A stretch of 64,000 nt of DNA from Verrucomicrobia bacterium S94 (GTDB taxonomy: Bacteria; Verrucomicrobiota; Kiritimatiellia; Kiritimatiellales; Pontiellaceae): NCBI GenBank assembly GCA_004299845.1, contig CP036201.1, forward strand, positions 3,720,001 through 3,784,000, in the 5' to 3' direction. Below the pieces are notes generated by a model that had not been told where the DNA came from, did not search any database, and saw only the letters and a list, made by a program, of their open reading frames with translations. Of this stretch, positions 45,663 to 64,000 are shown in pieces (within the stretch, counting starts at the first letter, position 1; each line of letters begins with the position of its first letter). The position numbers and the translations under genes are program-made.

Positions 45663-45797
45663 TTTTCAGTCCTCAAAATATTCGATAACGGGTTGTGAGC
45701 ATATGCTTAATATGCGTACAGGCAAGCCCGTGTTTTTAAAAATTGTAAGGTCCGGTTTTATTGGGGCAGGAAATGGGGAGCGGAGTGTTGCCTGGTT

Positions 45798-46630
45798 CGA
45801 CGTTTCCTTCCCGTTGGTCAGGTAAACGTCCGCTACACCGGGAAGCTTTTTGATGAAGTGTTGTTGGTGTAGAGGACGCTTACCCGAAGGGAAGCGTCGG
45901 GAGTCTGAAGGACAACCGTCGGGAGTTGAAGCAGAGCGGGTTTGTTCGACGTTTCCCTCCCGTTGATCAGGTAAACGCCCGCTACACCGGAAAGCTTTTT
46001 GATGAAGTGTTGTTGGTGTAGAGGACGCTTACCCGAAGGGAAGCGTCGGGAGTTTGAAAACAACCGTCGCGAGTTGAAGCTGAGCGGGTTTGTTCGACGT
46101 TTCCCTCCCGCTGGTCAGGTAAACGTCCGCTACACCGGGAAGCTTTTGAAGAGGAAATACCGGAGGTGTAGAGGACGCTTACCCGTAAGGAAAGCGTCGG
46201 GAGTCTGAAGGACAACCGTCGGGAGTTGAAGTTGAGCGGGTCTGTTCGACGTTTCCTTCCCGCTGGTCAGGTAAACGTCCGCTACACCGGGGCGCTTTTG
46301 AAGAGGAAATGCCGTTGGTGTAGAGGACGCTTACCCGTAAGGAAAGCGTCGGGAGTCTGAAGGACAACCGTCGGGAGATGAAGTTGAGCGGGTCTGTTCG
46401 ACGTTTCCTTCCTGCTGGTCAGGTAAACGTCCGCTACACCGGGGCGCTTTTGAAGAGGAAATGCCGTTGGTGTAGAGGACGCTTACCCGTAAGGAAAGCG
46501 TCGGGAGTCTGAAGGACAACCGTCGGGAGTTGAAGCTGAGCGGGTCTGTTCGACGTTTCCTTCCTGCTGGTCAGGTAAACGTCCGCTACACCGGTTGTGT
46601 TGGTTGTAGAAACGTCCGCTACACCGGCGG
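45798..46630. repeat. REP-like tandem array 3 (6 copies of ~150 bp)
   Basis: Copies begin at 45798, 45947, 46095, 46247, 46399 and 46551; the last is truncated. Periods of 148-152 bp. The unit is the same as in arrays 1 and 2, with some copies carrying CCCTCCCG or CCTTCCTG variants in the left hairpin. It lies between the start of the ferredoxin gene and the stop of the oxidoreductase gene. Confidence 0.85.
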
Positions 46631-50450: not shown

Positions 50451-51566
50451 ATGCAGATGGAAAATAACAAGGTGGTTCTGATCGGCGTGGTTGGGATGTC
50501 GCCGGCGGTTTTAACGGAAACAGTATGGGCTTTATCGAGAGAAAATCCTCCGGTGGTTCCTGATGAAGTAGTAGCTATCACTACATCTCAAGGGCGGGAA
50601 CAGATCGTACAGCAGCTGTTCGGACATGACAGTGTTTGGGATTCACTGCGGGATGCTCTTGGAGAATCGGCTGCTGAAAAACTTCGCTTCGATATCGAGA
50701 AATCTATCCGCATGATTCACGGTTTTGCGGATATTGCTTCGCCGGAAGAAAATGAGCAGTGCGCTGATTTTCTGCTGCAGCAGCTTCGACCCTATGCAGA
50801 AGAGGAAAAAACACAAATCATTGCCTCGATTGCCGGAGGAAGAAAAACGATGAGCGCACTCATGCTCTCCTGCATGAATCTGCTCGGAAGGGAACAGGAT
50901 CGGGTATGCCACGTCCTCGTGAATGAACCTTTCGAAAAGAGACTCAAGCCGGCATTCTACTTTCCGCAACCTGGAGTAATCCATGAGTACGAAGATCAAC
51001 GCACACAGGAAGTGAAAAAATATGCATCAGAAGATGCTGTCATTGCGCTTTCAGACATTCCTTTCGTCTGTGTTTCCAAGTGGCAGAATCTTAAATATGC
51101 GCCCAGCTCTTATTCTGCATTGGTTCGTTGGATCAATACGGGTGAATTTGATTTTCCACATATATGGATTAATCCCCATTCCCGAATGCTGGGAATCCGC
51201 GAATCGGAGGATTCGGAAACACTCGGGAAACTCACTTTTGGCCTGCTCTATTTTTGGCTTGGTTGGATGAAGCAATCGCCAGCCATTGAAGGCTGGAACA
51301 GTTTCCGGGATTATTTGGAAAAACATCTGCAGGACCAGCCGATTGATGAGCTGGATTATGAATGGGCTGGAGCCTTTGAAGATAAATATTTTTCTGATGG
51401 TAATTTCGTCATTGACGACGATATTTTGCGCAAACGGATGGGCGATGTCCGCAAAAAGCTGGAAGCCCTTTTCCGCTTCCCTCAACTGGCCAAGACACTC
51501 GTTCCTGATCTACAGAAACAGGAAGTCTTCAGCTTTCCGTTAAGCAATATTGAATGGAAAAACTGA
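50451..51566 (+). CDS. Cas_NE0113-family CARF protein
   Basis: 371 residues. N-terminal CARF fold with VLIGVVGMSPAVLTETVWAL and the ligand-loop GGRKTMSALML (about residue 127), like family Cas_NE0113 (PF09623/TIGR02584) found in type III loci. The C-terminal half (FVCVSKWQNLKYAPSSYSAL, LLYFWLGWMK) has no nuclease motif I can recognise. This family has been linked to ring-nuclease or cOA-sensing roles; which applies here is open. GGGAG upstream supports ATG 50451 or 50457. First gene of the type III-B locus; a 55-bp gap precedes the next gene. Confidence 0.75.
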   Translation: MQMENNKVVLIGVVGMSPAVLTETVWALSRENPPVVPDEVVAITTSQGREQIVQQLFGHDSVWDSLRDALGESAAEKLRFDIEKSIRMIHGFADIASPEENEQCADFLLQQLRPYAEEEKTQIIASIAGGRKTMSALMLSCMNLLGREQDRVCHVLVNEPFEKRLKPAFYFPQPGVIHEYEDQRTQEVKKYASEDAVIALSDIPFVCVSKWQNLKYAPSSYSALVRWINTGEFDFPHIWINPHSRMLGIRESEDSETLGKLTFGLLYFWLGWMKQSPAIEGWNSFRDYLEKHLQDQPIDELDYEWAGAFEDKYFSDGNFVIDDDILRKRMGDVRKKLEALFRFPQLAKTLVPDLQKQEVFSFPLSNIEWKN

Positions 51567-51621: not shown

Positions 51622-51996
51622 ATGCACAGCACTTCACACATTCTGATCGGAAACGCCTTCCCGCTGACGCTTGTCAAGCGTGCGGTTCGGATTGTGCCGG
51701 TTTCGCAGGAGGTGTTGCGGGAGGCGGCGCGCGGCAAAACCGTTGTTTCGTTCTGGGGGCATGCCAACACACTTGCCGCCGCCGAGGCGTTTTGCGGGCT
51801 TCCGCTGCTTCCGGCCTCTCCGCGTCCCGCCCTCGAGCTTTCCGTCGACGGCCTGCCCCGGCTCAACGGCCAGACATTTTCCGAATGCTGGATCGTTTCG
51901 CCGGAATACACCGCAGGATACCGTCCCGAACCCGGTGCTGAAGTGCCCGCCGACAACATCATCGGCTGGAAAATTTTAAAAATAACGTGGGAGTAA
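51622..51996 (+). CDS. DUF1874-like ring nuclease (Crn2/AcrIII-1-type)
   Basis: 124 residues from ATG 51622 (the frame is open upstream to 51550, where only a TTG is available). Pattern matches the DUF1874 family (viral AcrIII-1 and bacterial Crn2): N-terminal HILIGNAFPLTLVKRAVRIV, the GHANT motif with His at residue 47, the FCGLPL segment after it, and a beta-rich end SECWIVSPEYTAGYRPEPGAE ending in KILKITW. The equivalent histidine is the catalytic residue that cleaves cyclic tetra-adenylate in AcrIII-1. It stops 2 bp before the Card1-like gene, so activator and quencher are made from the same transcript. No ribosome site is obvious. Confidence 0.65.
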   Translation: MHSTSHILIGNAFPLTLVKRAVRIVPVSQEVLREAARGKTVVSFWGHANTLAAAEAFCGLPLLPASPRPALELSVDGLPRLNGQTFSECWIVSPEYTAGYRPEPGAEVPADNIIGWKILKITWE

Positions 51997-51998
51997 AT

Positions 51999-53123
51999 AT
52001 GCAAAAGTATCGAACTCAGATTATCATCGTCTCGGGACAGATGATCCCGAATGTAACTCCGGTCATGGATGATGCCATTTGTCCGGAAAAGGTGATTATA
52101 TGCGCCAGCAACGCCATGCGCGAACGAGCCCGTATCCTGAAAACCTTTTTTACCGCAAAGCAGATAGAAGCCGAAATCTTTGAGCTGGGTGATGCCTATG
52201 CGTTTGAGGAATTGCAGAACCGCTTCATGGAACTGGCCATTCAATGCGAAGGGGAAACGTCCCTAGCCGTCAATCTGACGGGAGGAACCAAACTGATGAC
52301 CATTGCCGCCCAGATGGTTTTTGAAAAGCGTCCGTGCTTTTATGTCATTCCGGAAAAGGATCAGATCATCATGCTGGATGCGGCCAATCCAGCCCTGTAC
52401 GAGATTGCCGATAAAATACAGCTGCGCGATTTCTTCGCCATTCATGGATACACCGTGACCGGCCAGAAACGGAAAAAGAAAATTTCCGCTTCAACCGTCG
52501 ATTTAGCGGAAACGCTGCTGAAACAATTCGACCGGTATAAAACAGAGATTGGAAAACTGAACTACCTGGCGGCAAAAGCGGAAGACGCCTATTCCTTGAC
52601 GGTGAAAAATGAAATTTCAGACGCCACCTGCGACCTCCTGGATCTTTTCTATAAGCAGGGCAGTATTTCTTATTACGACGATAAAAAAATCGAGTTTGCC
52701 TCCAGCGAAGCGCGCGATTTCTGCAAAGGCTTCTGGCTCGAGGACTACATCCTGAGCGAACTGTCCAAAGCGGATGAGGTCATCGGGCTGCAGGACTGGG
52801 CCGGATCGATTCAAATTGAAAGTGCCTCCGGCACCAAAAACGAAATCGATGCCGCCTTCCTCTATAACAACGAGCTTTACGTTATCGAATGCAAAACCGC
52901 GCGCATGGACGATAAAGGCGATGATGTGCTCTATAAAATTGATACCATCCGCGGCTATGCCGGGCTCTATACAAAACCGATTATCGCCACCTTCAAAGAA
53001 CTGAACAAATACGAGCGCCAGCGCGCCCGGGACCTGGGCATCACCCTGATCGAAGGCCGCAATCTCAACCGCTTTGCCGAACATTTAATGAAAAAAATCC
53101 ATCCGAAAGGAGAAACCGAATGA
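51999..53123 (+). CDS. Card1/Can2-type CARF nuclease
   Basis: 374 residues from ATG 51999 (GGGAG five bases upstream; a GTG at 51987 is rejected). CARF domain about 1-145 with VSGQMIPNVTPVM and NLTGGTKLMTIAAQMVF (GGTK at 95-98). A helical linker about 150-250 is followed by a DUF1887-type PD-(D/E)xK nuclease: Asp284 (NEIDAAF), Glu297-x-Lys299 (VIECK). Card1/Can2 proteins are DNases/RNases switched on by cyclic tetra-adenylate made by Cas10. Stop overlaps the Cmr2 start by four bases. Likely a strong cell-wide effector. Confidence 0.85.
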   Translation: MQKYRTQIIIVSGQMIPNVTPVMDDAICPEKVIICASNAMRERARILKTFFTAKQIEAEIFELGDAYAFEELQNRFMELAIQCEGETSLAVNLTGGTKLMTIAAQMVFEKRPCFYVIPEKDQIIMLDAANPALYEIADKIQLRDFFAIHGYTVTGQKRKKKISASTVDLAETLLKQFDRYKTEIGKLNYLAAKAEDAYSLTVKNEISDATCDLLDLFYKQGSISYYDDKKIEFASSEARDFCKGFWLEDYILSELSKADEVIGLQDWAGSIQIESASGTKNEIDAAFLYNNELYVIECKTARMDDKGDDVLYKIDTIRGYAGLYTKPIIATFKELNKYERQRARDLGITLIEGRNLNRFAEHLMKKIHPKGETE

Positions 53124-55597
53124 GTGAGGATTATTGGAAAAAGAAATTGATGGCTTACCTGCACGATCCGCCGTGCAAATGTTTTGACATTGGGGCGCAT
53201 GAACGAATTGCGGAAGGGTTCCGCAATGAAGCGGGAATTGAGCCGGCAGCTTATCAGGCGTTTGCTAAAATCTGCGATCACACGGCTTCTGCGGCTGACC
53301 GTTTTCCGTTTCCGTCCCGAAAGTGTTCGTCCAAATTTACCGGCGGCGAAGATTTTCCATTCAAGCATCCGTTTTGTAACGCGACACTGAAATTCCATGT
53401 TCCGGTGGAAACGGCGGAACTGGCGGAAGAACAGTTCCAAAAGGCCATCGGTGGGATTCCGTGTGACCTAGACTGGAAATCGAAGTTTTTCCTCTACTGG
53501 CGACGCTGGCCGGAGGAAGCCGCGAAGCAAGATCGGCGTTTGGCCTATCTGCCGGCGGATACACGCATTCCAGATCATACTATTTGGAATCACATGGGGC
53601 TGACCTCCGCTTTTCAGGCTTGTGTGAATGAAAGCGGGGACTTGAAACCGGCCTTTCTGCAGTTTCAACTGGGGCCGGTGCAGGAGTTTATTGCGGCTGC
53701 AAAAAGTACGCGTGATCTGGCGGCAGGCAGTTATCTGCTCTCTTGGCTGATGGCCCACGCCATGAAAGCGGTGGCTGATGAAGTCGGGCCAGATGCCGTG
53801 ATCTTTCCGAATCTGCGTGGACAGCCAATCTTCGACCTGCTCAACAAGTCGCTTTACGATCAAATCCGGTTTGCTGGGAAATCGGGAGCGGAAGAATCGC
53901 TCTGGCAACGAATGTATGGTGACGGGATCGATGGGCTGCTTCGGCCGACGCTGCCGAACCGTTTTTGCGCGCTGGTTCCGGCGTGGCAGGCGAGGGAAAT
54001 CGCGGGCAACGCGGAAAAGGCTGTCCGGAACGCTTTGCTGGAAGCCGGAGAAAAGGTGTGGCCGCATGTGGGCGAGGGATACAAAGTGCGTGACCGCATC
54101 GAGTGGGCGGCGTTTACACCCACTGAAATCGATCGGAAACGCTGGGTGAATCAGTTGGAAACTTTTCTTCAGATTACATGGACGGCAGGACCGTGGAAAG
54201 AACGCTCGGATCGATCCAGCAAAAAATGCAACCTCCATGAAAAACTGGCGCGTGAAATCATTCCGGAGGCGGATCGCGACCGCCGGTGTTACCTTGACCA
54301 GGATCCAGAAAAAGAACTCAACGCAGGATTTTACTGGCAGGAACATATCGAAGATTCCGGACGACAGTTGGCTGGTCGTCGCAATCTGCGCGACTTCTTT
54401 CAGATTCCGGAAGACAAAAAACAAGCCGGTTCTAAAAAGGATCGACTGACAGGGCGCGAGGAGGAGATCGGCGAAACGGGGTATGGTGCGTTGAGCATCC
54501 TCAAGCGCATGTTCCATAAACAGGTGCTGTTTCCTCAGCTGGGCTGCTCTGAACAGGCTTTCTGGAAAGCAGCTGGCTATGAAGATACCCGCTCTGTCGC
54601 AGAGAAAAACCGGTTGTCGGCCACAGAGCGTCAGAAAGGAAAAGGTAAATCCGCCAATCCGTATATTGCGCTGCTGGCGCTGGACGGCGATGAGATGGGG
54701 CGCTGGATGTCAGGTGAAAAAGCACAGCGGTTCGTGGATAATCTGGCAGGCAAGGCTCCCGGCTATTTTATGGGACTGCCCGGTTTCGATCCGAAGCTCA
54801 AACGGGCACTTACGCCGGCGTATCATCAGCAGTTTTCCGAGGCGCTTTCCAATGTCGCGCTTCATATGGCGGCTCCGGTTGTGGAAGGGTTCGGAGGACA
54901 GCTGATCTATGCCGGTGGTGATGATGTTCTGGCCATGTTGCCAGCTACCGAAGCGTTGGAATGTGCCTGGGCGCTGCGCTGCTGTTTTCGAGGAGAAACA
55001 CTGCCTGATCATCTGCAGAACTGCGTTAAGCTGAACAGCCGGGGCGATGGCTTCGTAGATGCTGGATTGGGGTATCCGCTGATGGCACCTGGGCTGGAGG
55101 CGGATGTCTCCTGCGGAATCGCAATCGGGCATTGTAACCATCCGCTGCAGGCGCTCGTCCGAGAGGCTCAGAAAGCGGAGAAACGGGCAAAAAACCGGTA
55201 TGAACGCGCAGCGTTCGCACTATCCCTTGTCAAGCGTTCCGGAGAAACCCTGCACTGGGGCGGGAAGTGGACAAGTAATGCTCTGCCGCTTTACCTAGCG
55301 TTTGAACAGTTCAGTGAAGACGAAAAGCTGTCTGGTCGTTTCCCGTACGCTTTGGCGGAGTTGCTGAAGCCGTACCGTCTGGATGCCGAAGAGAAGTCGC
55401 CGAAATCATTCCGCGATGTGGTGTGGTCGGAATTCTGCCATGTGCTGTATCAGCAGAGCGATGGAAGGCTGTCCCCCCGGGATCTGCCGCTGGCCGATGG
55501 TTATCTCGACCATTGCGTTGAGTCGAACCGCTGGGCTGACTTTCCCAATCTGTTTCTGGCCGCAGCCTTTATCAACCGTCCGAGAGGAGAAGAATAA
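53120..55597 (+). CDS. cmr2: Cmr2 (Cas10), type III-B large subunit
   Basis: 825 residues. HD region starts at residue 15 (YLHDPPCK) with ICDHTASAAD near 53. Two palm-type cyclase domains: ALDGDEMGRW with Asp522 and the catalytic GGDD at 599-602 (YAGGDDVL). Both nuclease and cyclase motifs are intact, so cOA synthesis is expected. A cluster of cysteines and basic residues lies between. Cmr2 with Cmr3-6 and crRNA forms the effector complex. ATGA overlap with the Card1-like gene. Two bases after the stop comes cmr3. Confidence 0.95.
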   Translation: MSEDYWKKKLMAYLHDPPCKCFDIGAHERIAEGFRNEAGIEPAAYQAFAKICDHTASAADRFPFPSRKCSSKFTGGEDFPFKHPFCNATLKFHVPVETAELAEEQFQKAIGGIPCDLDWKSKFFLYWRRWPEEAAKQDRRLAYLPADTRIPDHTIWNHMGLTSAFQACVNESGDLKPAFLQFQLGPVQEFIAAAKSTRDLAAGSYLLSWLMAHAMKAVADEVGPDAVIFPNLRGQPIFDLLNKSLYDQIRFAGKSGAEESLWQRMYGDGIDGLLRPTLPNRFCALVPAWQAREIAGNAEKAVRNALLEAGEKVWPHVGEGYKVRDRIEWAAFTPTEIDRKRWVNQLETFLQITWTAGPWKERSDRSSKKCNLHEKLAREIIPEADRDRRCYLDQDPEKELNAGFYWQEHIEDSGRQLAGRRNLRDFFQIPEDKKQAGSKKDRLTGREEEIGETGYGALSILKRMFHKQVLFPQLGCSEQAFWKAAGYEDTRSVAEKNRLSATERQKGKGKSANPYIALLALDGDEMGRWMSGEKAQRFVDNLAGKAPGYFMGLPGFDPKLKRALTPAYHQQFSEALSNVALHMAAPVVEGFGGQLIYAGGDDVLAMLPATEALECAWALRCCFRGETLPDHLQNCVKLNSRGDGFVDAGLGYPLMAPGLEADVSCGIAIGHCNHPLQALVREAQKAEKRAKNRYERAAFALSLVKRSGETLHWGGKWTSNALPLYLAFEQFSEDEKLSGRFPYALAELLKPYRLDAEEKSPKSFRDVVWSEFCHVLYQQSDGRLSPRDLPLADGYLDHCVESNRWADFPNLFLAAAFINRPRGEE

Positions 55598-55599
55598 TC

Positions 55600-56819
55600 A
55601 TGTGCTGGTATGAACTGAAACTTGAGCCGCGCGATGTCCTGTTTTTCCGTGATGCACGTCCGATGGAAGCCTCGTCGGTCGGTAGCGGCGCCAACTGGCC
55701 GTTGCCCAATGTCTTGCACGACGCTCTCATTCAGGGGCTGAAACGGCAATGGCCAGAACGGCAGCCGTGGGAAGTGGAACATCGAAATGCGAATAAAAAT
55801 GACAACCGTTCTGAAAAGGAGTTCCGCAGCCTTCGTTTCGGCGGACTGAAGACCGCCGGGCTTTTCCCGGCTCAAGGCGACGAAATCTTCTTCCCTTGCC
55901 CGCTGGATCTTGATCCGGAGGGGACACGATGCAGCTGATAGATCGGCCTGAGGAAAGCAACCTGCCCGCGTTCATCGAAAAGGTGGCCGTGCTTACGGGA
56001 AAACCAAGTAAGAAAGAGCTTCCGCACTGGATCAGCAGTACTCAGTTTTCGGCCTATCTGAACGGGAATTCAGTCGAGCTTGAAGAAAATCCGGAACCGC
56101 TGTTCGATATCGAAACGCGTCCGGGAATCGGCATAGATCCCGAATGCGGCTCCGTCGATACCGGAGGAGAGGGAGAGGGCGGAAAATTCTATCTTGCCGA
56201 ATATCTGCGTCTACGCGATGGGATTTCGTTACGCGGTTACGCCAAATGTGAATCTTCTTTGCGCGGTGAAGTGAAAGCCGATGTACTCGAAAAGCTTTTT
56301 GAAGGATCTCGCCACGTACCGCTTACATTCGGAGGTCAGCAGGGTGTTGTTGGCCTGTCATGTGTACGGCTCGAAAAACCGTTACAGGGGCTTGTTGCCG
56401 AAAATGCATCCGATGGCTGCTGGGTTAAATGGATTCTGCTCGCACCTGCGGTGTTTTCCAATGGGTGGAAACCGGACTGGGTTGATGAAAACGGCATCGT
56501 CCGGTTACCCGCCGAGCGTCCGCCGCGAAAGCCCGGCCAAACCCGCGAGGAGTGGCGAAAAAGTTTTACGGAGGCACCGAAGGCTGTTCTGGCCGCCGCC
56601 TGCAGCGGGAAACCGTTGCCGTTTTCCGGTTGGAATACTCGAATTGGCGGGCCGCGTCCCGCTCGGCTCGCGGTTCCCGCCGGATCGGTCTACTGGTTCC
56701 GTGCGGAATCTCCAACGGATGCGGCCACTCTTGTCAAAGTCCTGCAGGGACGCTGTATGAGCAGTTTTTACGGAGAAAAAGGTTTCGGTCTCGGAATATG
56801 TGTTCAACAAAAAATGTAA
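55600..56819 (+). pseudogene. cmr3: Cmr3, RAMP protein, one frameshift
   Basis: Frame one (55600-55923) has the RAMP start YELKLEPRDVLFFRDARPME, then WPLPNVLHDALIQGLKRQW; frame two (to 56819) starts before MQLIDRPEESNLPAF and carries HWISSTQFSAYLNGN, FDIETRPGIGIDP and the glycine-rich end GEKGFGLGI. One extra G at GGGG 55920-55923 gives a continuous 406-residue protein. Cmr3 holds the crRNA 5' tag next to Cmr2. With the rest of the operon intact and no in-frame damage, a consensus error is likely. GAGGAGAAG precedes ATG 55600. Confidence 0.8.
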
Positions 56820-56859
56820 GATCGGCCTGCAGGTCGAACGAGTGAAAAGGAGAATAAGC

Positions 56860-57714
56860 ATGAAAAAAATGACGATGACCCTGTTTGCAAGAACCCCCGT
56901 GCATGTCGGCGCGGGCAACTCTGTCGGTGCGGTCGACTCGCCCATCCAGCGCGAACGCCATACCCGCATCCCCATCATCCCCGGCTCCTCCCTCAAAGGG
57001 GTGCTCGCCGACCTCTGGAATGAAAAGGACAGCAACGGAAAATGGGTGCGGAGCCCAACCGGCAAAGAGCTGTTCGGCGAGGATGAAGGAGGAAAAAAAG
57101 TGGATGGGAAAGAAATACAGGCCAAAGCCGGCAGCCTGCTCATCGGCGAAGCCCGCGTGCTCGCCTTTCCCGTCCGCTCCGCCAAAGGCATGTTTGCCTG
57201 GATCACCTGTCCGCTGGTGCTGGAACGATTTGCGCGGGATAGGGACATTCAATGCCCGGATCTGCCTGCGCTGACGGAGAACCAGTGTCTCTCTTCGGGC
57301 AGCATCCTGCTCGAAAATACAGCGGTTCTCGAAGAGTATCGTATTGAGTCGGTCGGCGACGCAAATGCCATTGTAGAATTACTCAAATCGGTTTGCTCCG
57401 ATTCGGTCTGGAGCAGCATGCCGGAACGGCTGGTGGTGCTTTCGAACGACTTGTTCTCCTATTTTGTTGAGCAGGCCTGTGAGGTGGTTTCCCGTATTCG
57501 CATCAATGACGAAACGGGCGTAGTTGCCAAGGGTGCGCTCTTTAATCAGGAGCAGGTGCCCAGCGAAACACTTTTCTATAGTGCAATATTTGTGGATGAT
57601 ACAAAAATTCCGGATGCTGAAGATAAGCTGAAGGACATGCTTTCAGCAGGTTTTCTGCAGGTGGGGGGCGATGCGTCAACCGGTTTGGGCTATTGCAGTG
57701 TGGAGGTGCTCTAA
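56860..57714 (+). CDS. cmr4: Cmr4, Cas7-like backbone subunit
   Basis: 284 residues from ATG 56860 (AAAGGAGAATAAGC upstream; ATG 56800 lies inside cmr3). RAMP signature PVHVGAGNSVGAVDSPIQRE with the Asp in GAVDSP equivalent to the RNA-cleaving residue, IPGSSLKGVLADLW with the Lys and Gly loop, and FLQVGGDASTGLGY at the C terminus. Cleaves target RNA at six-nucleotide intervals. Stop and the next start share ATG/TAA overlap at 57714. Confidence 0.93.
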   Translation: MKKMTMTLFARTPVHVGAGNSVGAVDSPIQRERHTRIPIIPGSSLKGVLADLWNEKDSNGKWVRSPTGKELFGEDEGGKKVDGKEIQAKAGSLLIGEARVLAFPVRSAKGMFAWITCPLVLERFARDRDIQCPDLPALTENQCLSSGSILLENTAVLEEYRIESVGDANAIVELLKSVCSDSVWSSMPERLVVLSNDLFSYFVEQACEVVSRIRINDETGVVAKGALFNQEQVPSETLFYSAIFVDDTKIPDAEDKLKDMLSAGFLQVGGDASTGLGYCSVEVL

Positions 57715-58109
57715 TGAAAAATCTGGATCAGATCCGCGCGAAAAACGCACTCTATGCTGCGAAGACAACCCGCTTCAGCGGAACGGAAGGCGGTGGCATT
57801 ATTAAAAAGGTTCCGACCATGATTCGAGAGAACGGACTGCTCGGTGCATTGGCTTTCGCGTGTGAAAAGAAAAAGGATGGCACCTATAAAAACGGCGACT
57901 TTCACAAGGTGTTTGAACAGATTCTCGTGCATCTTCAAGATGAGCGAATCGGGGCACTGAAAAAAGTGGGGGCGCATGCGGATGATTTGCTGGAGCATGC
58001 CGTTCTGATTTCTTCTGCCCAGCTTCGCGTGATTACGGATGAAGCGATGGCCTATCTTGCATTTCTGCGGCGTTTTGCTTCTGATGAAAACGGAGAGAGT
58101 GATGAGTAG
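57714..58109 (+). CDS. cmr5: Cmr5 small subunit
   Basis: 131 residues from ATG 57714. All-helical small subunit with AKNALYAAKTTRFSG near the start and a tail of helices (VITDEAMAYLAFLRRFA). Binds the major groove side of the Cmr backbone. It overlaps cmr4 by one base (TAATG) and cmr6 by eight, so the three are tightly coupled. Confidence 0.88.
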   Translation: MKNLDQIRAKNALYAAKTTRFSGTEGGGIIKKVPTMIRENGLLGALAFACEKKKDGTYKNGDFHKVFEQILVHLQDERIGALKKVGAHADDLLEHAVLISSAQLRVITDEAMAYLAFLRRFASDENGESDE

Positions 58110-59613
58110 ATATCTGCCATTAACAACCGCGGTGAGGGAGGTCGCGGACCTCTTGTCCGATCAGCCGGATAAAGTCGTCAGTCTCTATGGACAACTGGCG
58201 GAAATTGAACATTCACCAGGATCAGACAACCAGAAGTCGAAACAGGCCGCTCCGCTGCTAAGTAAACTCTGTGCTCTGGAATTCAATCGGGTGGAGTCCG
58301 CGTCGTTGCGCCTGGAAAAGTTCGTTCATTTGGGCGCCACGACCAAAGACAATGAAATGAACGAAGTCTGTAAGCGGATCAACAAGCTCGATCTACGGTG
58401 CGAGGACTGGCATCTGCCCGAGTCGCTTTGGCGTGACGGCATCGAACTCGTGATGAAGTTGGAGGGGCGCCTTGCGATCCATCTGGCGGGCGGGGTGCTG
58501 GAAAATACGGGGATGTGCATCCATCCACATTTCAACTGTCCGTATCTTCCCGGCAGCGGCGTCAAGGGCGTTGCCCGCCATGCAGCCTGGGCAAAGTGGA
58601 ACGAAACCAAATCATTCGAGGATGCACTGAAGGTGGCTTGGACGTTCGGCTATCCGACTGGGGATACCATGCCCCAAAAGGAGAAGGCTCGCACTCGCCC
58701 CGAAAAGGATTATCTGGACAATTTCCTGGCTCTCCGTAAACCGGAATGGTTCGGAAAAGAGGGCAGATATAAGTCCTTTGCAGGGTTGGTCTCTTTTCTG
58801 CCCGCCTTCCCGCTGGCAGGCGGATTTAAGGTGGTGGCCGATGTGCTGACTTGCCATCATCCGGATTATTACAAAGGGGAAAACGAGCGGGCCACGGATG
58901 ACGAATCCCCAATTCCGCAATTTTTTCCGGTGATTGAATCCGGCAGTCGGTTTCGTTTTGTACTGCGGCCGTTGAGGAGTGTCGGAGAAGCGGAACTGCC
59001 TTTCGGTGCTGAGGTACTGGAATGGGCGCGTGCATTTCTGATTGAGGGTATGACTCTTTACGGTGCGGGTGCCAAAACCGCCGCCGGATACGGTTGGTTC
59101 TCATATAACCCGGATGAGGAAAAAAGACGTCTTGCGCAGCAGGAGGAGGCGCGTAAACGCCGGTTACTGGAGGAAAAGTCCGTCGCCATCCAGTCGGAGC
59201 TCTATGCGCTGGCGGATCCGTCGCCGTTTCAGTTCGGCGAGATGAAGAAACGCTTCGACGAACTGGTTGCTATGGCAACGGCGGAGCGGATGGAGTTGCC
59301 CGGGAAACAGCGCATTGAAGATGCACTCAACCGCATGAAAAAGAAGTTGCCTCAGGCATCGCCGCTGGATCAGCTGCGCGAAAAATGGGCGAAGCAGAAT
59401 ATGAACGCGGTGATCAAAAGCGATATCGCAAAATTTGATAAGCAGAAGCCGGAACAGAAGAAGCTGATCGTGGAACTGCTGCGCGAGCCGGAGGGAGTCG
59501 GTGCGGAAATCTGGAGCCAGATCCGGCAGGGACAGAAGGGCAATATCGCTAAGGGTGTGACGGCTCTTCGAACCTATTGTAAAAACGAACTTAAACTGGG
59601 AAAAATGCCATAA
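58102..59613 (+). CDS. cmr6: Cmr6 with long C-terminal extension
   Basis: 503 residues from ATG 58102. The Cas7-like RAMP core (about 95-345) has HPHFNCPYLPGSGVKGVARHA and the end glycine loop AGAKTAAGYGWFSYN. Typical Cmr6 proteins have about 250-350 residues; here an N-terminal helical part (1-90) and about 150 C-terminal residues are extra. They are charged and helical (EEKRRLAQQEEARKRRLLE, then KQKPEQKKLIVELL), so coiled-coil or additional helical domain. The end overlaps the cmr1 start. Role in complex assembly next to Cmr1 is known for the family; the role of the extension is open. Confidence 0.88.
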   Translation: MSRYLPLTTAVREVADLLSDQPDKVVSLYGQLAEIEHSPGSDNQKSKQAAPLLSKLCALEFNRVESASLRLEKFVHLGATTKDNEMNEVCKRINKLDLRCEDWHLPESLWRDGIELVMKLEGRLAIHLAGGVLENTGMCIHPHFNCPYLPGSGVKGVARHAAWAKWNETKSFEDALKVAWTFGYPTGDTMPQKEKARTRPEKDYLDNFLALRKPEWFGKEGRYKSFAGLVSFLPAFPLAGGFKVVADVLTCHHPDYYKGENERATDDESPIPQFFPVIESGSRFRFVLRPLRSVGEAELPFGAEVLEWARAFLIEGMTLYGAGAKTAAGYGWFSYNPDEEKRRLAQQEEARKRRLLEEKSVAIQSELYALADPSPFQFGEMKKRFDELVAMATAERMELPGKQRIEDALNRMKKKLPQASPLDQLREKWAKQNMNAVIKSDIAKFDKQKPEQKKLIVELLREPEGVGAEIWSQIRQGQKGNIAKGVTALRTYCKNELKLGKMP

Positions 59614-60419
59614 TGAAAACACTCTTTGATGGAACGATGGAGATCATCACCCCCTGCTTCTGCGCCGGGGCGGATCAGTCCAAGGCGGAAATCCGCGCAC
59701 CCTCGATTCGAGGGGAACTGCGTTGGTGGTTCCGTGCGCTGGGGGGAACCCGGCAGTTGGAAGCTGAGGTGTTTGGCTCAATAAAAGTGACGAAGGGTGA
59801 GAGGGTAATTAGCGAGAATCAGGCAAGTACTCTGATTGTCCGTGTTTCCGATCTGCGCAAAACGGGGGCAGAGAGCGGGCAGATGCCGTCGAATCACCGG
59901 TTCTTTGTTAAAACCCGCTTGGACAGCGGCAGTGCGGCTATGATTCCGGCCGGGTGGAGTTTCAGGCTTCAGATTCTTCAGGCAAAGCATACGAGTTGTG
60001 ATGATTTGATCGATTTTGCCGTTCGATGCTTTATGACGCTTGGCGGATTGGGATTGCGTTCCAACCGCGGATTGGGAGCGGTCCAGACCATGACGAAGCA
60101 ATCGGATTTCCAATCTTTGGAAAATGATTTGTGCAGCAGGGGTTTTGAAGTTTTCACTTTTCCCGTTCAGCAAAGTGCGCTGGATGCGCTGGTTGTGCTT
60201 GAGGAGCAGATTAAGAGCTTTCGCGAACAGGAGGGTGTTCAGAAAGACAGCAACAATGCCATGGGATTCGTACAAAGAAGAAAGAGACATGCTTCCTGTT
60301 TGCGGACGCGCCCGCTGAAAATGGAGAATGAAACATTCCTGCCAATCATGTTTTATTCCGAGGCGGCCATGGGAAATGTGACTGGTTTGCGCAGTAAACT
60401 GAAAGCTCATTTCGCATGA
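59613..60419 (+). CDS. cmr1: Cmr1 RAMP protein
   Basis: 268 residues, at the short end for Cmr1. It starts TLFDGTMEIITPCFCAGADQ, then EIRAPSIRGELRWWFRALGG, the hallmark Cmr1 motif, and CFMTLGGLGLRSNRGLGAVQ near residue 150. Cmr1 caps the complex at the crRNA 3' end and helps Cmr6. Start overlaps the cmr6 stop by one base. A 39-bp gap precedes the CARF-HEPN gene. Confidence 0.93.
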   Translation: MKTLFDGTMEIITPCFCAGADQSKAEIRAPSIRGELRWWFRALGGTRQLEAEVFGSIKVTKGERVISENQASTLIVRVSDLRKTGAESGQMPSNHRFFVKTRLDSGSAAMIPAGWSFRLQILQAKHTSCDDLIDFAVRCFMTLGGLGLRSNRGLGAVQTMTKQSDFQSLENDLCSRGFEVFTFPVQQSALDALVVLEEQIKSFREQEGVQKDSNNAMGFVQRRKRHASCLRTRPLKMENETFLPIMFYSEAAMGNVTGLRSKLKAHFA

Positions 60420-60458: not shown

Positions 60459-61726
60459 ATGAGTAATTCAAATGTGTTATTGCTGAGTGTAGGCGGTTCG
60501 TCGGAACCGAATATTCATGTCATCAAGGAGCGGAAGCCGGAGAAGATTATCTTTTTTTCGTCGGAATCAAGCCGGGAAAAGGTAGAGCAGGAGATTCTTC
60601 CGGCGGTCGGCTATTTCCCCCGATGCGGCCATATTGTGACGCCGGATGCGGAGGATGTCGGGGTAAGCACGTTTGAACTGCTGAAAAAAATGCCGGAGGA
60701 ACTGCGCAAGCTGGGCGAAACGATCGACTGGCCGCAGCTCTGCGGCTATACCGGCGGCACCAAGACCATGAGCGCGGCGGTGGTCTGGGCCTCATCGCGC
60801 TTCCCGTGTGAACTGCTGTATGTCGGCGGTCAAAAGCGTTCCAAGGGGGGCTGGGAATTGTTGAAAACGGGTCGGAGCAGCTGGTGGCCATTGAAAATCC
60901 ATGGAACGCAGTAGGCTGGTTTGAGGTCCGCACGGCCTTTGAACTGTTTAATCGGGCGCAGTACAGTAATGCCGCCAAAGTGCTCTCAGAGCTGTTGCAG
61001 AAAGTGCAGGCGCATGAGGTGCGGGTGATCGTTGAGTTTCTCCGAGACATCATGCAGGCGGTCGCCGACTGGGATGCCTTTCAGCATGCCCGGGCGCTCA
61101 AGGCGATGGAACGGGCGGTTCGGGAGCTGCCAAAAGTGCAGGGGTTGATCGAAGCTGAATTTCCGGAATTGCACCTGCTGCTCGAATGGCTGGAAACTGC
61201 GCGCGATCATTTGCGGGCGCTGAAAATTGCAAAAGATGGAGCTCTTCCCCTGTCGGAACCCCTTTGCGAAGAGCTGTTGTCAAATGCTTTGCGGCGTGCC
61301 CGCCTTGAAGGGAAATATGAGGATGCGACTGCCCGGCTCTATTCGCTGTTTGAGAAAGAGGTAAAGCGGCGCTTACTTGAACAGCATAACCTCGACAATT
61401 CTGCCTGTCTTCTGGATTCTATCCCGGAAACCATTCGGGATGACTATTCACGATATGCCGATGAAAAGAACGTCTGCCGGTTCGGTCTGAAAGGGACTGT
61501 TCATCTACTACAGGCACTGGGTTCACAGGATCTGTTTGTGGAGCGTTATCTGGAAAAGGAAAAGGAAATCGACCGTGCCATCGGCGCCCGCAATGCCAGC
61601 ATTTTGGGTCATGGAACGCAGCCTATTACAGAAGCAAAATTTGATGAATTGCTGATTCTTGTGCTTTTTGTTTTAGGGGTAAAAGAAGACGAAGTGCTTT
61701 GCATTCCCAAAATTCAAAAAAGCTAA
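60459..61726 (+). pseudogene. CARF-HEPN protein (TIGR02710-like), one frameshift
   Basis: Frame one has the CARF fold (NVLLLSVGGSSEPNIHVIK, GYTGGTKTMSAAVVWASSR); frame two continues VENGSEQLVAIENPWNAV and a helical HEPN domain with the RNase motif RNASILGH (R-x6-H). Adding one G to GGGGGG at 60845-60850 gives 422 residues with KGGLGIVENG, the family-typical join. CARF-HEPN proteins (Csm6/Csx1-like, here TIGR02710 branch) cut RNA when cyclic oligoadenylate binds. AGGGGAACG precedes the ATG. Probably functional in the organism. Confidence 0.8.
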
Positions 61727-62148: not shown

Positions 62149-62394
62149 ATGAATGAAGGGAAGAACAACAGCCGCGTCGGCCGGCCGCTTCGTCCGGAAA
62201 AAACGGCGGAAGCGGACAAAATTATGCGCCTGTGCTGTCCGGACTGCGGCGGACGGGAGAGCGTTGTGCTGCCGGCGGGGGCGGAAGGTACTGCGGTGCT
62301 GCTGGAAACGCTGCGCCGAGCATGTCCGGACTGCGGCGGCGGGAAACGCCGTCTGGAACGGATACGTCATATCAGCAAAAAGGAGCGGAACTGA
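62149..62394 (+). CDS. small double-CxxC protein upstream of cas1
   Basis: 81 residues from ATG 62149 with a clean ribosome site (AAAGGAGACTT). Two identical CPDCGG motifs (near residues 30 and 62) separated by about 28 residues suggest one zinc ribbon; the rest is basic (NNSRVGRPLRPEKTAEADK and KRRLERIRHISKKERN). No family is recognised. The stop is two bases before the cas1 ATG, so it is co-translated with Cas1 and may help spacer capture. The longer frame fused to the RAYT remnant is considered an artefact. Confidence 0.55.
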   Translation: MNEGKNNSRVGRPLRPEKTAEADKIMRLCCPDCGGRESVVLPAGAEGTAVLLETLRRACPDCGGGKRRLERIRHISKKERN

Positions 62395-62396
62395 TT

Positions 62397-63425
62397 ATGC
62401 CTTCACTGGTCTTTAACGGAAACCGTATCGAAGCACGGCGCGAGAGCCGCCGGATCATTCTGAGCCGGACGGGCGACGACTGCAGCACTGCGGCCAGCGT
62501 GTCGGTTCCGCTTAACGATGTCGACCGCGCTACGGTGGTGGGGCACCCGCATGTTTCTGTATCGGTGCTCCAGAAACTGATGCGCGAAGGGATTCCCGTT
62601 TCGTTTATATCCGAAAAGGGTCATTGGTACGGCACCCTGCATCCGGATGGCGACAAAAATGCGGCGCGGCGGTTGATGCAGTACCGGCAGCAGGAAAATC
62701 CCGCGGTTCGGCTGAGCTGTGCCAAAAAGGTCGTGCGCGCCAAAATTCGGAATCAGCGTCGCGTTCTGCAGCGCCTCGCCGCAAACCGGAACGAATCGAA
62801 GGCCTCCGCGCACCTCGACGCGGTCGATACCCTGCGCCAGCTGGCCCGCACAGCGGGACAGGCTCCCGATAATGAATCGCTGCGCGGCATCGAAGGCACT
62901 GCCGCCGCGCGTTATTTTCAACGGCTCGGCCTTTTCTTTCCCGAAGCCGTACCCTTCAACGGCCGCTCCCGCCGGCCGCCGCGCGATGCCGCCAACGCGC
63001 TGCTCTCCTGGACCTATACCATTGTGCTGAGCGAAGTCGATGCCGCTCTGCGCCTGCAGGGGCTTGATCCCTGTTTCGGGTGGCTGCACGAAGTCTCTGC
63101 CGGAACGCCGGCCCTTGCACTGGATCTGCTCGAACCGTTGCGCGCGCCCGTCTGCGACCTGCTTGTGCTCAACCTCCTCAACCATGGAATCCTCGGTCCC
63201 GCCGACTTTCATGTAAGTGCCGAAGACGGCGGAACCTACCTGAACGAAACCGCCCGTAAAAAATTCTTCGTCCACTATGAATCCCACATGCAGCGCAAAT
63301 TCAAACCAGCTCCCGATGCGCCGCATACCGACCTGCGCCAATGCATCACCCGCCAGGTCTGGGGTGTGCTGCGCCTCCTCGAAAATCCGGAAACCGATGA
63401 AGCCGGAATCTTCCTTATGCCATGA
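62397..63425 (+). CDS. cas1: Cas1 integrase
   Basis: 342 residues from ATG 62397 (AAAGGAGCGG upstream; the open frame before it belongs to another reading of the small gene). Catalytic residues: Glu166 in RGIEGTAAARYF, His231 in WLHEVSAG and Asp243/Glu246 in LALDLLEPLRAPVCD. Together with Cas2 it inserts new spacers. GC-richer codon use than the cmr genes, hinting that the adaptation cassette was acquired separately. Overlaps the possible cas2 upstream start by four bases. Confidence 0.95.
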   Translation: MPSLVFNGNRIEARRESRRIILSRTGDDCSTAASVSVPLNDVDRATVVGHPHVSVSVLQKLMREGIPVSFISEKGHWYGTLHPDGDKNAARRLMQYRQQENPAVRLSCAKKVVRAKIRNQRRVLQRLAANRNESKASAHLDAVDTLRQLARTAGQAPDNESLRGIEGTAAARYFQRLGLFFPEAVPFNGRSRRPPRDAANALLSWTYTIVLSEVDAALRLQGLDPCFGWLHEVSAGTPALALDLLEPLRAPVCDLLVLNLLNHGILGPADFHVSAEDGGTYLNETARKKFFVHYESHMQRKFKPAPDAPHTDLRQCITRQVWGVLRLLENPETDEAGIFLMP

Positions 63426-63508
63426 TGCGCATCGATGAATTCAGCCGTTATTTCCCCGCTCAGCCGGAATACGGCTTTTACGACCCAGCCGGGAAGGAGA
63501 TCAAACAT

Positions 63509-63784
63509 ATGCTCCACCTTGTGGCCTACGACATCGCCGACGCCAAACGCCTCCGACTCGTTGCCAAAACCTGCGAGGATTTCGGGGTGCGCGTGGAATA
63601 TTCCGTTTTCGAATGCGACCTGCCGCCGGAACGTTTCGAAGGTTTCTGGAACGAACTCAACCGGATTATCAACAAAGATGAGGATTCTCTGCTCGCTTAT
63701 CGGATCTGTGGCGAATGCGTTAAAAAAACGCGTTCTTCCGGAACCGTCGTCCGTCCGGAAAAGGCCATGCTCTACATTTTATGA
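63509..63784 (+). CDS. cas2: Cas2
   Basis: 91 residues from ATG 63509, preceded by AAGGAG nine bases upstream; the MLHLVAYDIADAKRLRLVAK start and VRVEYSVFECDLPPERF are standard Cas2 (ferredoxin fold, metal-binding Asp in YDIAD). An in-frame ATG at 63422, which overlaps the cas1 stop, would add 29 residues (MMRIDEFSRYF...). The shorter start fits family length and ribosome site better, but the longer product cannot be excluded. Structural partner of Cas1 in spacer integration. Confidence 0.9.
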   Translation: MLHLVAYDIADAKRLRLVAKTCEDFGVRVEYSVFECDLPPERFEGFWNELNRIINKDEDSLLAYRICGECVKKTRSSGTVVRPEKAMLYIL

Positions 63785-63839: not shown

Positions 63840-64000
63840 GTAAGTGCATTTATTTCAATGAATTGTGTTTATTTTTGTGAGGTTTTTCATCCGGATTTCG
63901 GCCGGAAAAAGAGGGGAAAAATGGACTGCCGCCAAAACGGGCTTGCAACCTCCTGGGAATCAATGACATAAAAGGGGTGCTGTCCGAATAGGGCAGAAAG
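63840..64000 (+). CRISPR. leader and probable first CRISPR repeat, cut by window edge
   Basis: After the cas2 hairpin, about 135 bases of AT-rich leader-like sequence run to a candidate repeat starting near 63977 (GTGCTGTCCGAATAGGGCAG). It contains a short inverted stem CTGTCC/GGGCAG around GAATA, typical of CRISPR repeats, and is cut off at the last base. No second repeat can be seen, so the array is inferred from position and stem only. Confidence 0.45.

Follow-up and report, generated by a model that had tools for sequence, protein, structure and literature searches.

The question raised by this locus is what is encoded by a small gene lying inside a type III-B CRISPR operon, directly ahead of a nuclease gene, in the 64,000-nucleotide stretch of Verrucomicrobia bacterium S94 DNA analyzed here (the window), and whether its product serves the operon in which it sits. 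Our analysis indicates that the gene very probably encodes a ring nuclease of the Crn2/AcrIII-1 fold working for the type III-B CRISPR system of its host, with cA4 cleavage as its putative activity. The features of the operon, in window coordinates, are as follows.

50451 to 51566, + strand: CARF protein of the NE0113/TIGR02584 family (TIGR02584 E 1.1e-50; PF09623 E 9e-27)
51622 to 51996, + strand: Crn2-like putative ring nuclease, 124 aa (open reading frame, 27-genome family, Crn2/AcrIII-1 predicted fold, profile match to DUF1874)
51760 to 51762, + strand: codon of His47, the equivalent of AcrIII-1 His47 (hhalign column match; invariant in 28/28)
51999 to 53123, + strand: Can2/Card1-type nuclease, CARF plus PD-(D/E)XK (PF23400 E 1.6e-15; PF09002 E 4.9e-22; Can2 7bdv E 2.6e-31)
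53120 to 55597, + strand: Cas10/Cmr2, GGDD cyclase motif at residue 599 (TIGR02577 E 3.1e-64; motif)
55600 to 56819, + strand: Cmr3, split by a frame change near 55920 in a G run (PF09700 on both parts; comparison with L033)
56848 to 57714, + strand: Cmr4 (PADLOC Cmr4 E 2.8e-63)
57717 to 58109, + strand: Cmr5 (PADLOC Cmr5 E 1.3e-16)
58093 to 59613, + strand: Cmr6 (TIGR01898 E 2.4e-24)
59613 to 60419, + strand: Cmr1 (TIGR01894 E 4.1e-13)
60459 to 61726, + strand: CARF-HEPN protein (TIGR02710, Csm6/Csx1 type) with a frame change near GGGGGG at about 60845 (TIGR02710 on both parts; PF09670 Csm6 HEPN)
62394 to 63425, + strand: Cas1 (PADLOC Cas1 E 9.8e-77)
63422 to 63784, + strand: Cas2, 120 aa (open reading frame after Cas1; homologues follow Cas1 in related loci)
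63982 to 64000, strand not given: beginning of the CRISPR array (37-nt repeats, ten in all, of which nine lie past the window on the G000 contig)

The operon is of type III-B (Cmr), with Cas1, Cas2, and an array, and all of its genes are on the + strand. Between the last base of the stop codon of the 124-aa gene (51996) and the next ATG (51999) lies exactly the two-base gap noted in an earlier, sequence-only reading of this DNA; the Card1-like neighbor which that reading described is likewise borne out by the Card1-type CARF and PD-(D/E)XK domains (PF23400, PF09002) and by the match to Can2 (7bdv), the closest solved relative of this nuclease, which is expected to be activated by cA4. In the protein encoded at 50451 to 51566 (listed by NCBI as 'CRISPR-associated ring nuclease Csm6'), the TIGR02584 and PF09623 matches leave approximately 160 residues at the C terminus uncovered; this protein is a possible second degrader or sensor of cOA in the locus. 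The frame changes in Cmr3 (55915 to 55935, GGGG) and in the CARF-HEPN gene (60840 to 60910, GGGGGG) both fall at G runs, which fits a homopolymer error in the assembly, real inactivation or decay, or phase variation. In a promoter scan, promoter-like sites were no more numerous than in shuffled sequence, and the + strand had none; co-transcription of the ring nuclease gene with the operon is suggested by gene spacing. Elsewhere in the window, between two chromosomal genes, positions 45738 to 46627 hold six tandem copies of a 148- to 152-nt unit, most of them 80 to 90% alike.

The 124-aa protein contains the segments LIGNAFPLTL, VVSFWGHANTL, PRPALEL, SECWIVSPEY, YRPEPGAEV, and GWKILKITWE. The NAF motif and the GHxxT motif with His47, both pointed out previously, are found at residues 11 to 13 and as G46-H47-A-N-T50, so that the earlier numbering was exact; the Cys-Gly turn listed with them is present as Cys58-Gly59 but is not a feature of the family, as column 58 is variable in the 28 aligned sequences. 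Homologues can be aligned from Met1 onward, which favors 51622 as the true start. The pattern N-[AGST]-[FA]-x(28-45)-GHxxT-x(12-22)-R occurs once in the 313 open stretches of the window, whereas residue shuffles yield it 0.07 times on average, and both this pattern and the conservation of the reading frame exceed chance.

Among 388 sampled genomes of the same phylum, 26 genomes besides this one carry a homologue, with 39 to 57% identity and a conserved frame. A search with the family profile recovered the same 27 genomes plus one short partial stretch in G203, and homologues are also present in five species-level records from Verrucomicrobiota/Lentisphaerota, some of which overlap with the sampled genomes. 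The family spans 19 genera with an intact frame inside type III operons, and 18 positions listed here are invariant in the 28 aligned sequences (G10, F13, P14, L17, S43, W45, G46, H47, T50, R68, P69, P79, R101, P102, G105, W116, L119, and W123). An apparent N-terminal fusion in G015 (locus L038), in which a PP2C domain shares the open frame, was rejected because the stretch between the domains reads as a leader, stop-less by chance, and the start of other members falls close to this Met; long upstream open frames in L014 and L017 were discounted as fusions, as for G015.

Assignment to DUF1874, as the sequence-only reading had proposed, is supported in predicted fold and profile kinship but not in formal membership. 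PF08960 did not match the window protein at E ≤ 1, and a PF08960 scan of the 388 phylum genomes, including this one, gave 0 matches while the Bacillus subtilis control was positive. Searches with the single protein sequence against Pfam, NCBIfam, PADLOC, PHROGs, and the PDB returned no usable relative (PHROG 5063 was reached at E 0.17), and no relative of it was found in curated phage or plasmid records. When the family profile was compared with all PDB sequences, three entries appeared at E ≤ 10, all DUF1874 viral proteins (2x4i, E 0.015; 2j85, E 0.14; 6scf, E 0.86); each value is weak alone, but nothing besides DUF1874 proteins appears, and we therefore count the result as evidence. Alignment of the family profile to DUF1874 relatives with hhalign gave a probability of 94.6%, a P value of 6.8e-8, and a score of 49.5, against a maximum score of 19.6 from 100 column-shuffled profiles. 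In this alignment N11-x-F13 falls on N8-x-F10, GHxxT on GHxxT (H47 on AcrIII-1 H47), and R68 on R66. As an invariant residue in all 28 sequences that aligns to the AcrIII-1 histidine, His47 is supported as the probable catalytic histidine, in agreement with the earlier proposal. Since PF08960 does not recognize the window protein, we call it Crn2-like rather than a PF08960 member; it is a divergent sister lineage.

Structure prediction, the check which the sequence-only reading had set against its own fold claim, returned the DUF1874/Crn2 fold and no other. The AlphaFold model of the window protein (pLDDT 89.1, pTM 0.81) was built from a shallow alignment of 5 sequences. In a Foldseek search of the PDB the top 13 matches were all AcrIII-1, B116, AFV3-109, or Csx1-Crn2, the last of them at E 0.008 and the next match of any kind at E 0.4. 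VIA comparison of the same model gave Z 9.5 for 2j6b (103 residues, 2.8 Å), Z 9.3 for 6scf_F (107 residues, 3.1 Å), and Z 8.4 for 8y7g_B (106 residues, 3.1 Å), with the next unrelated fold at Z 2.0; values over AcrIII-1, STIV B116, AFV3-109, and Csx1-Crn2 ranged from 6.5 to 9.5, and all matches above Z 2.0 were Crn2/AcrIII-1 proteins. The predicted structure thus has the Crn2/AcrIII-1 fold, with 6scf, 2j85, 2x4i, 2j6b, and 8y7g at the top of every list. No CARF, SAVED, Csx, or Crn4 entry came up in the structural searches, an absence that does not exclude a family.

The clearest departure from AcrIII-1 lies in one loop. In 11 aligned AcrIII-1 relatives the loop R85-L/x-E88-G89 is near invariant; at the matching secondary-structure position the window family has R101-P-x-[VIP]-G105, followed by E107 in 23/28 sequences. 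R101 and G105 are candidates for the loop Arg and Gly, and there is no Glu at the position matching Glu88. The correspondence of RLEEG with RPxxG is drawn from topology, as the sequence profiles do not align that far, and if it is right the conserved Glu88 appears to be absent or moved in the window family.

The distribution of the gene follows that of type III systems. Cmr2-type Cas10 is encoded in 24/27 gene-positive genomes and in 30/361 negative ones among the 388 sampled (Fisher p 3e-20, with the relatedness of genomes not corrected for), so that 24/54 Cmr2-positive genomes have the Crn2-like gene; under a broader Cas10 model 25/27 gene-positive genomes are positive. The gene and Cas10 share a contig in 21/27 genomes, 0.6 to 7.1 kb apart, and are on different contigs in four. 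A ring nuclease would be expected in type III loci whose Cas10 is cyclase competent, which fits this placement and the GGDD motif in the Cas10 of the window. Family members also lie beside compact Cas10s (~500 aa) with Cas6 and RAMP genes (L038, L041, L047, and L048), loci of a type III subtype unlike the Cmr system of the window. Two copies have unrelated neighbors (L040:8945-9325, radical SAM/hydrogenase-like; L054:3209-3574, ZIP transporter), and no Cas10 was found in a search of their genomes, which are 91% and 72% complete, respectively. A 150- to 154-aa protein with the motif FGTxWxV...HPG is encoded near the ring nuclease gene at L038:15717-16181, L047:13512-13967, and L051:1471-1932; two of its three copies, when tested, had no Pfam match.

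A Card1-type nuclease is present in 10/27 gene-positive genomes, and the gene touches it in 5/27 (G000, G002, G017, G019, and G079), lying elsewhere beside Cas10 or otherwise in the operon. The gene order behind the "safety-switch" that had been proposed for the quencher and the activated effector is present in the window but not specific to Card1; the pairing is only one of several arrangements, and a crn2 gene next to can2 in type III loci has already been reported (PMC7969007).

One family member is viral. The phage contig IMGVR_UViG_3300005613_000049 (69,308 bp; IMG/VR) encodes at L083:2992-3348 a 118-aa homologue which is 43% identical, keeps the motif residues, and sits among small accessory open reading frames; the contig also encodes a terminase, a portal, an endolysin, and a dNMP kinase, and no Cas10 was found on it. 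The homologue forms a long branch whose position among the cellular members the tree does not resolve. Its own model, built from an alignment with the phage sequence first, gave the same match list (Z 8.1 to 6.9, next 2.1) and is not fully independent, since that alignment shares sequences with the one used for the window protein. By analogy with AcrIII-1 we regard the phage homologue as a candidate anti-CRISPR. A pattern match on a viral contig in L085 was rejected as a chance match with no family open reading frame. Two Erwinia phage proteins in BFVD, J7KCD4 and A0A1B2IEC3, resemble the window model (Foldseek probability 0.99, TM ~0.5) and are possible further phage proteins with a predicted Crn2 fold.

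From what is observed or computed, namely the gene, its conservation, the predicted fold, the histidine alignment, and the operon context, we infer dimerization, cA4 as the substrate, the cleavage chemistry, co-transcription, and the physiological role. In the proposed mechanism Cas10 would detect target RNA and make cA4, which would activate the Can2/Card1-type nuclease and, if intact, the CARF-HEPN protein; the 124-aa protein would bind cA4 as a dimer, and His47 would act as the general acid as cA4 is cut to linear di-adenylates. The lower cA4 level would then limit collateral damage and reset the system. Metal-independent cleavage of cA4 to A2>P by a dimer characterizes the Crn2/AcrIII-1 family. 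General-acid cA4 cleavage of the His47 type is established for AcrIII-1 and Crn2 (PMC7293037, PMC12830947, PMC12409355). Can2 is activated by cA4 and lacks ring nuclease activity of its own (PMC7969007), and an external off-switch is therefore to be expected. A phage copy without Cas10 also counts in favor of a ring nuclease, as the same is known for AcrIII-1. Against this reading stand the failure of PF08960 to recognize the protein, the lack of an evident counterpart of Glu88 in the matching loop, the shallow alignment behind the AlphaFold model, and the two copies in genomes without detected Cas10, although those genomes are incomplete.

The altered loop is also the starting point for an improbable alternative, in which the Crn2-fold protein binds cA4 while cleaving it poorly or not at all, and so sets the activation threshold of the Can2-type and CARF-HEPN effectors as a sponge or buffer. 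RP-x-[VIP]-G appears to stand in place of the near-invariant, Glu88-containing RLEEG loop, and AcrIII-1 inactivated by H47A retains tight cA4 binding (PMC7213978), but His47, Thr50, Arg68, and Arg101 are invariant in 28 sequences, more than binding alone should need, and E107 (23/28) may replace Glu88. Slightly less probable again is a Crn2-fold ring nuclease that acts on cA3, cA5, cA6, or SAM-AMP and not mainly on cA4: the pocket-lining residues are unlike those of AcrIII-1 (invariant W45, P69, P102, and W116), only 10/27 gene-positive genomes have a Card1-type nuclease, and Crn4 is a single ring nuclease that cuts several cOAs (PMC12830947). The effector adjacent to the gene in the window is, however, a relative of the cA4-activated Can2 (PMC7969007), and known ring nucleases associate with cA4 effectors (PMC12409355).

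That the gene is a phage anti-CRISPR recently captured by the operon, with no host function, seems to us very improbable. The Cas10-less phage contig with its 43% identical homologue and the suggested viral origin of Crn2 (PMC12409355) would suit such a history, but the gene has been kept with an intact frame in type III operons over 19 genera, is present in 24/54 Cmr2-positive genomes, and is flanked by cas genes and not part of a prophage. We retain a host-serving ring nuclease as the best explanation. A bolder version of it, which we hold as a tentative and rather doubtful proposal, would treat the lineage as a ring nuclease family in its own right, which keeps the Crn2 fold but has a rebuilt active site, lacking Glu88 and marked by invariant Trp/Pro and an RPxxG loop. 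Its cOA preference or product might then have changed, and it would act as a main type III off-switch of Verrucomicrobiota, with phages of these bacteria using it as an anti-CRISPR.

The kind of protein and its role are already known; what is new is a divergent lineage of Crn2-like proteins that the Pfam, NCBIfam, and PADLOC profiles do not detect. It is widespread in the type III loci of Verrucomicrobiota and has one copy on a phage contig. No paper naming the lineage was found in the literature collection searched; supplementary profile sets of recent CRISPR classifications lay outside that search and may include it. According to PMC12409355, Crn2 is seldom found in cells, with 7 loci in 38,742 complete genomes, and probably came from viruses. 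If our reading is true, cellular Crn2-type enzymes are commoner than thought (27/388 genomes of one phylum; 24/54 of the Cmr2-positive ones) and would be missed because the profiles do not reach them. The phage and host copies would form a testable anti-CRISPR/host pair within one family, and with the loop substituted it can be tested directly on which residues catalysis by the Crn2 fold depends.

Compared with known systems, the window protein is closest to Crn2/AcrIII-1 (DUF1874, PF08960; SIRV1 gp29, 6SCF/2X4I; STIV B116, 2J85; AFV3-109, 2J6B). It shares with them the predicted fold (Z 7.8 to 9.5), N-x-F near the N terminus, GHxxT with His47, a downstream Arg, a small stand-alone form, and occurrence of the family in type III loci and in phage. 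It differs in falling outside PF08960 at 12 to 18% identity, in family-specific features (G-N-x-F-P, F-W-G-H, R-P, E-C-W, R-P-x-x-G, and W116/W123), and, by the topological match, in having no Glu in the loop corresponding to RLEEG of AcrIII-1. Csx16, Csx20, Csx15, Crn1, Crn3, and Crn4 are, like it, small type III-associated proteins with a known or predicted ring nuclease or cOA-binding role. Their profiles in Pfam, NCBIfam, and PADLOC did not match the window protein, nor did the Csx16 models including PF09652 (Pfam, E ≤ 1; NCBIfam and PADLOC, E ≤ 0.1); Csx16 was reported to resemble 2J6B distantly, with Z 4.8 (PMC12409355), and the fold of Crn4 is unrelated (PMC12830947). The crn2-can2 pairs (PMC7969007) likewise place a Crn2-type gene next to a can2-type gene in a type III locus, but those are recognized Crn2 genes from other phyla, whereas the pairing is a minority arrangement here (5/27). 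The Marinitoga Csx1-Crn2 fusion (8Y7F/8Y7G; PMC7293037) is bacterial, comes from a III-B locus, and has a catalytic His (H495) and the Crn2 fold predicted here (Z 8.2 to 8.4); there the ring nuclease and its effector are made together, whereas in the window the quencher is a separate gene that adjoins a Can2-type nuclease and is not fused to Csx1.
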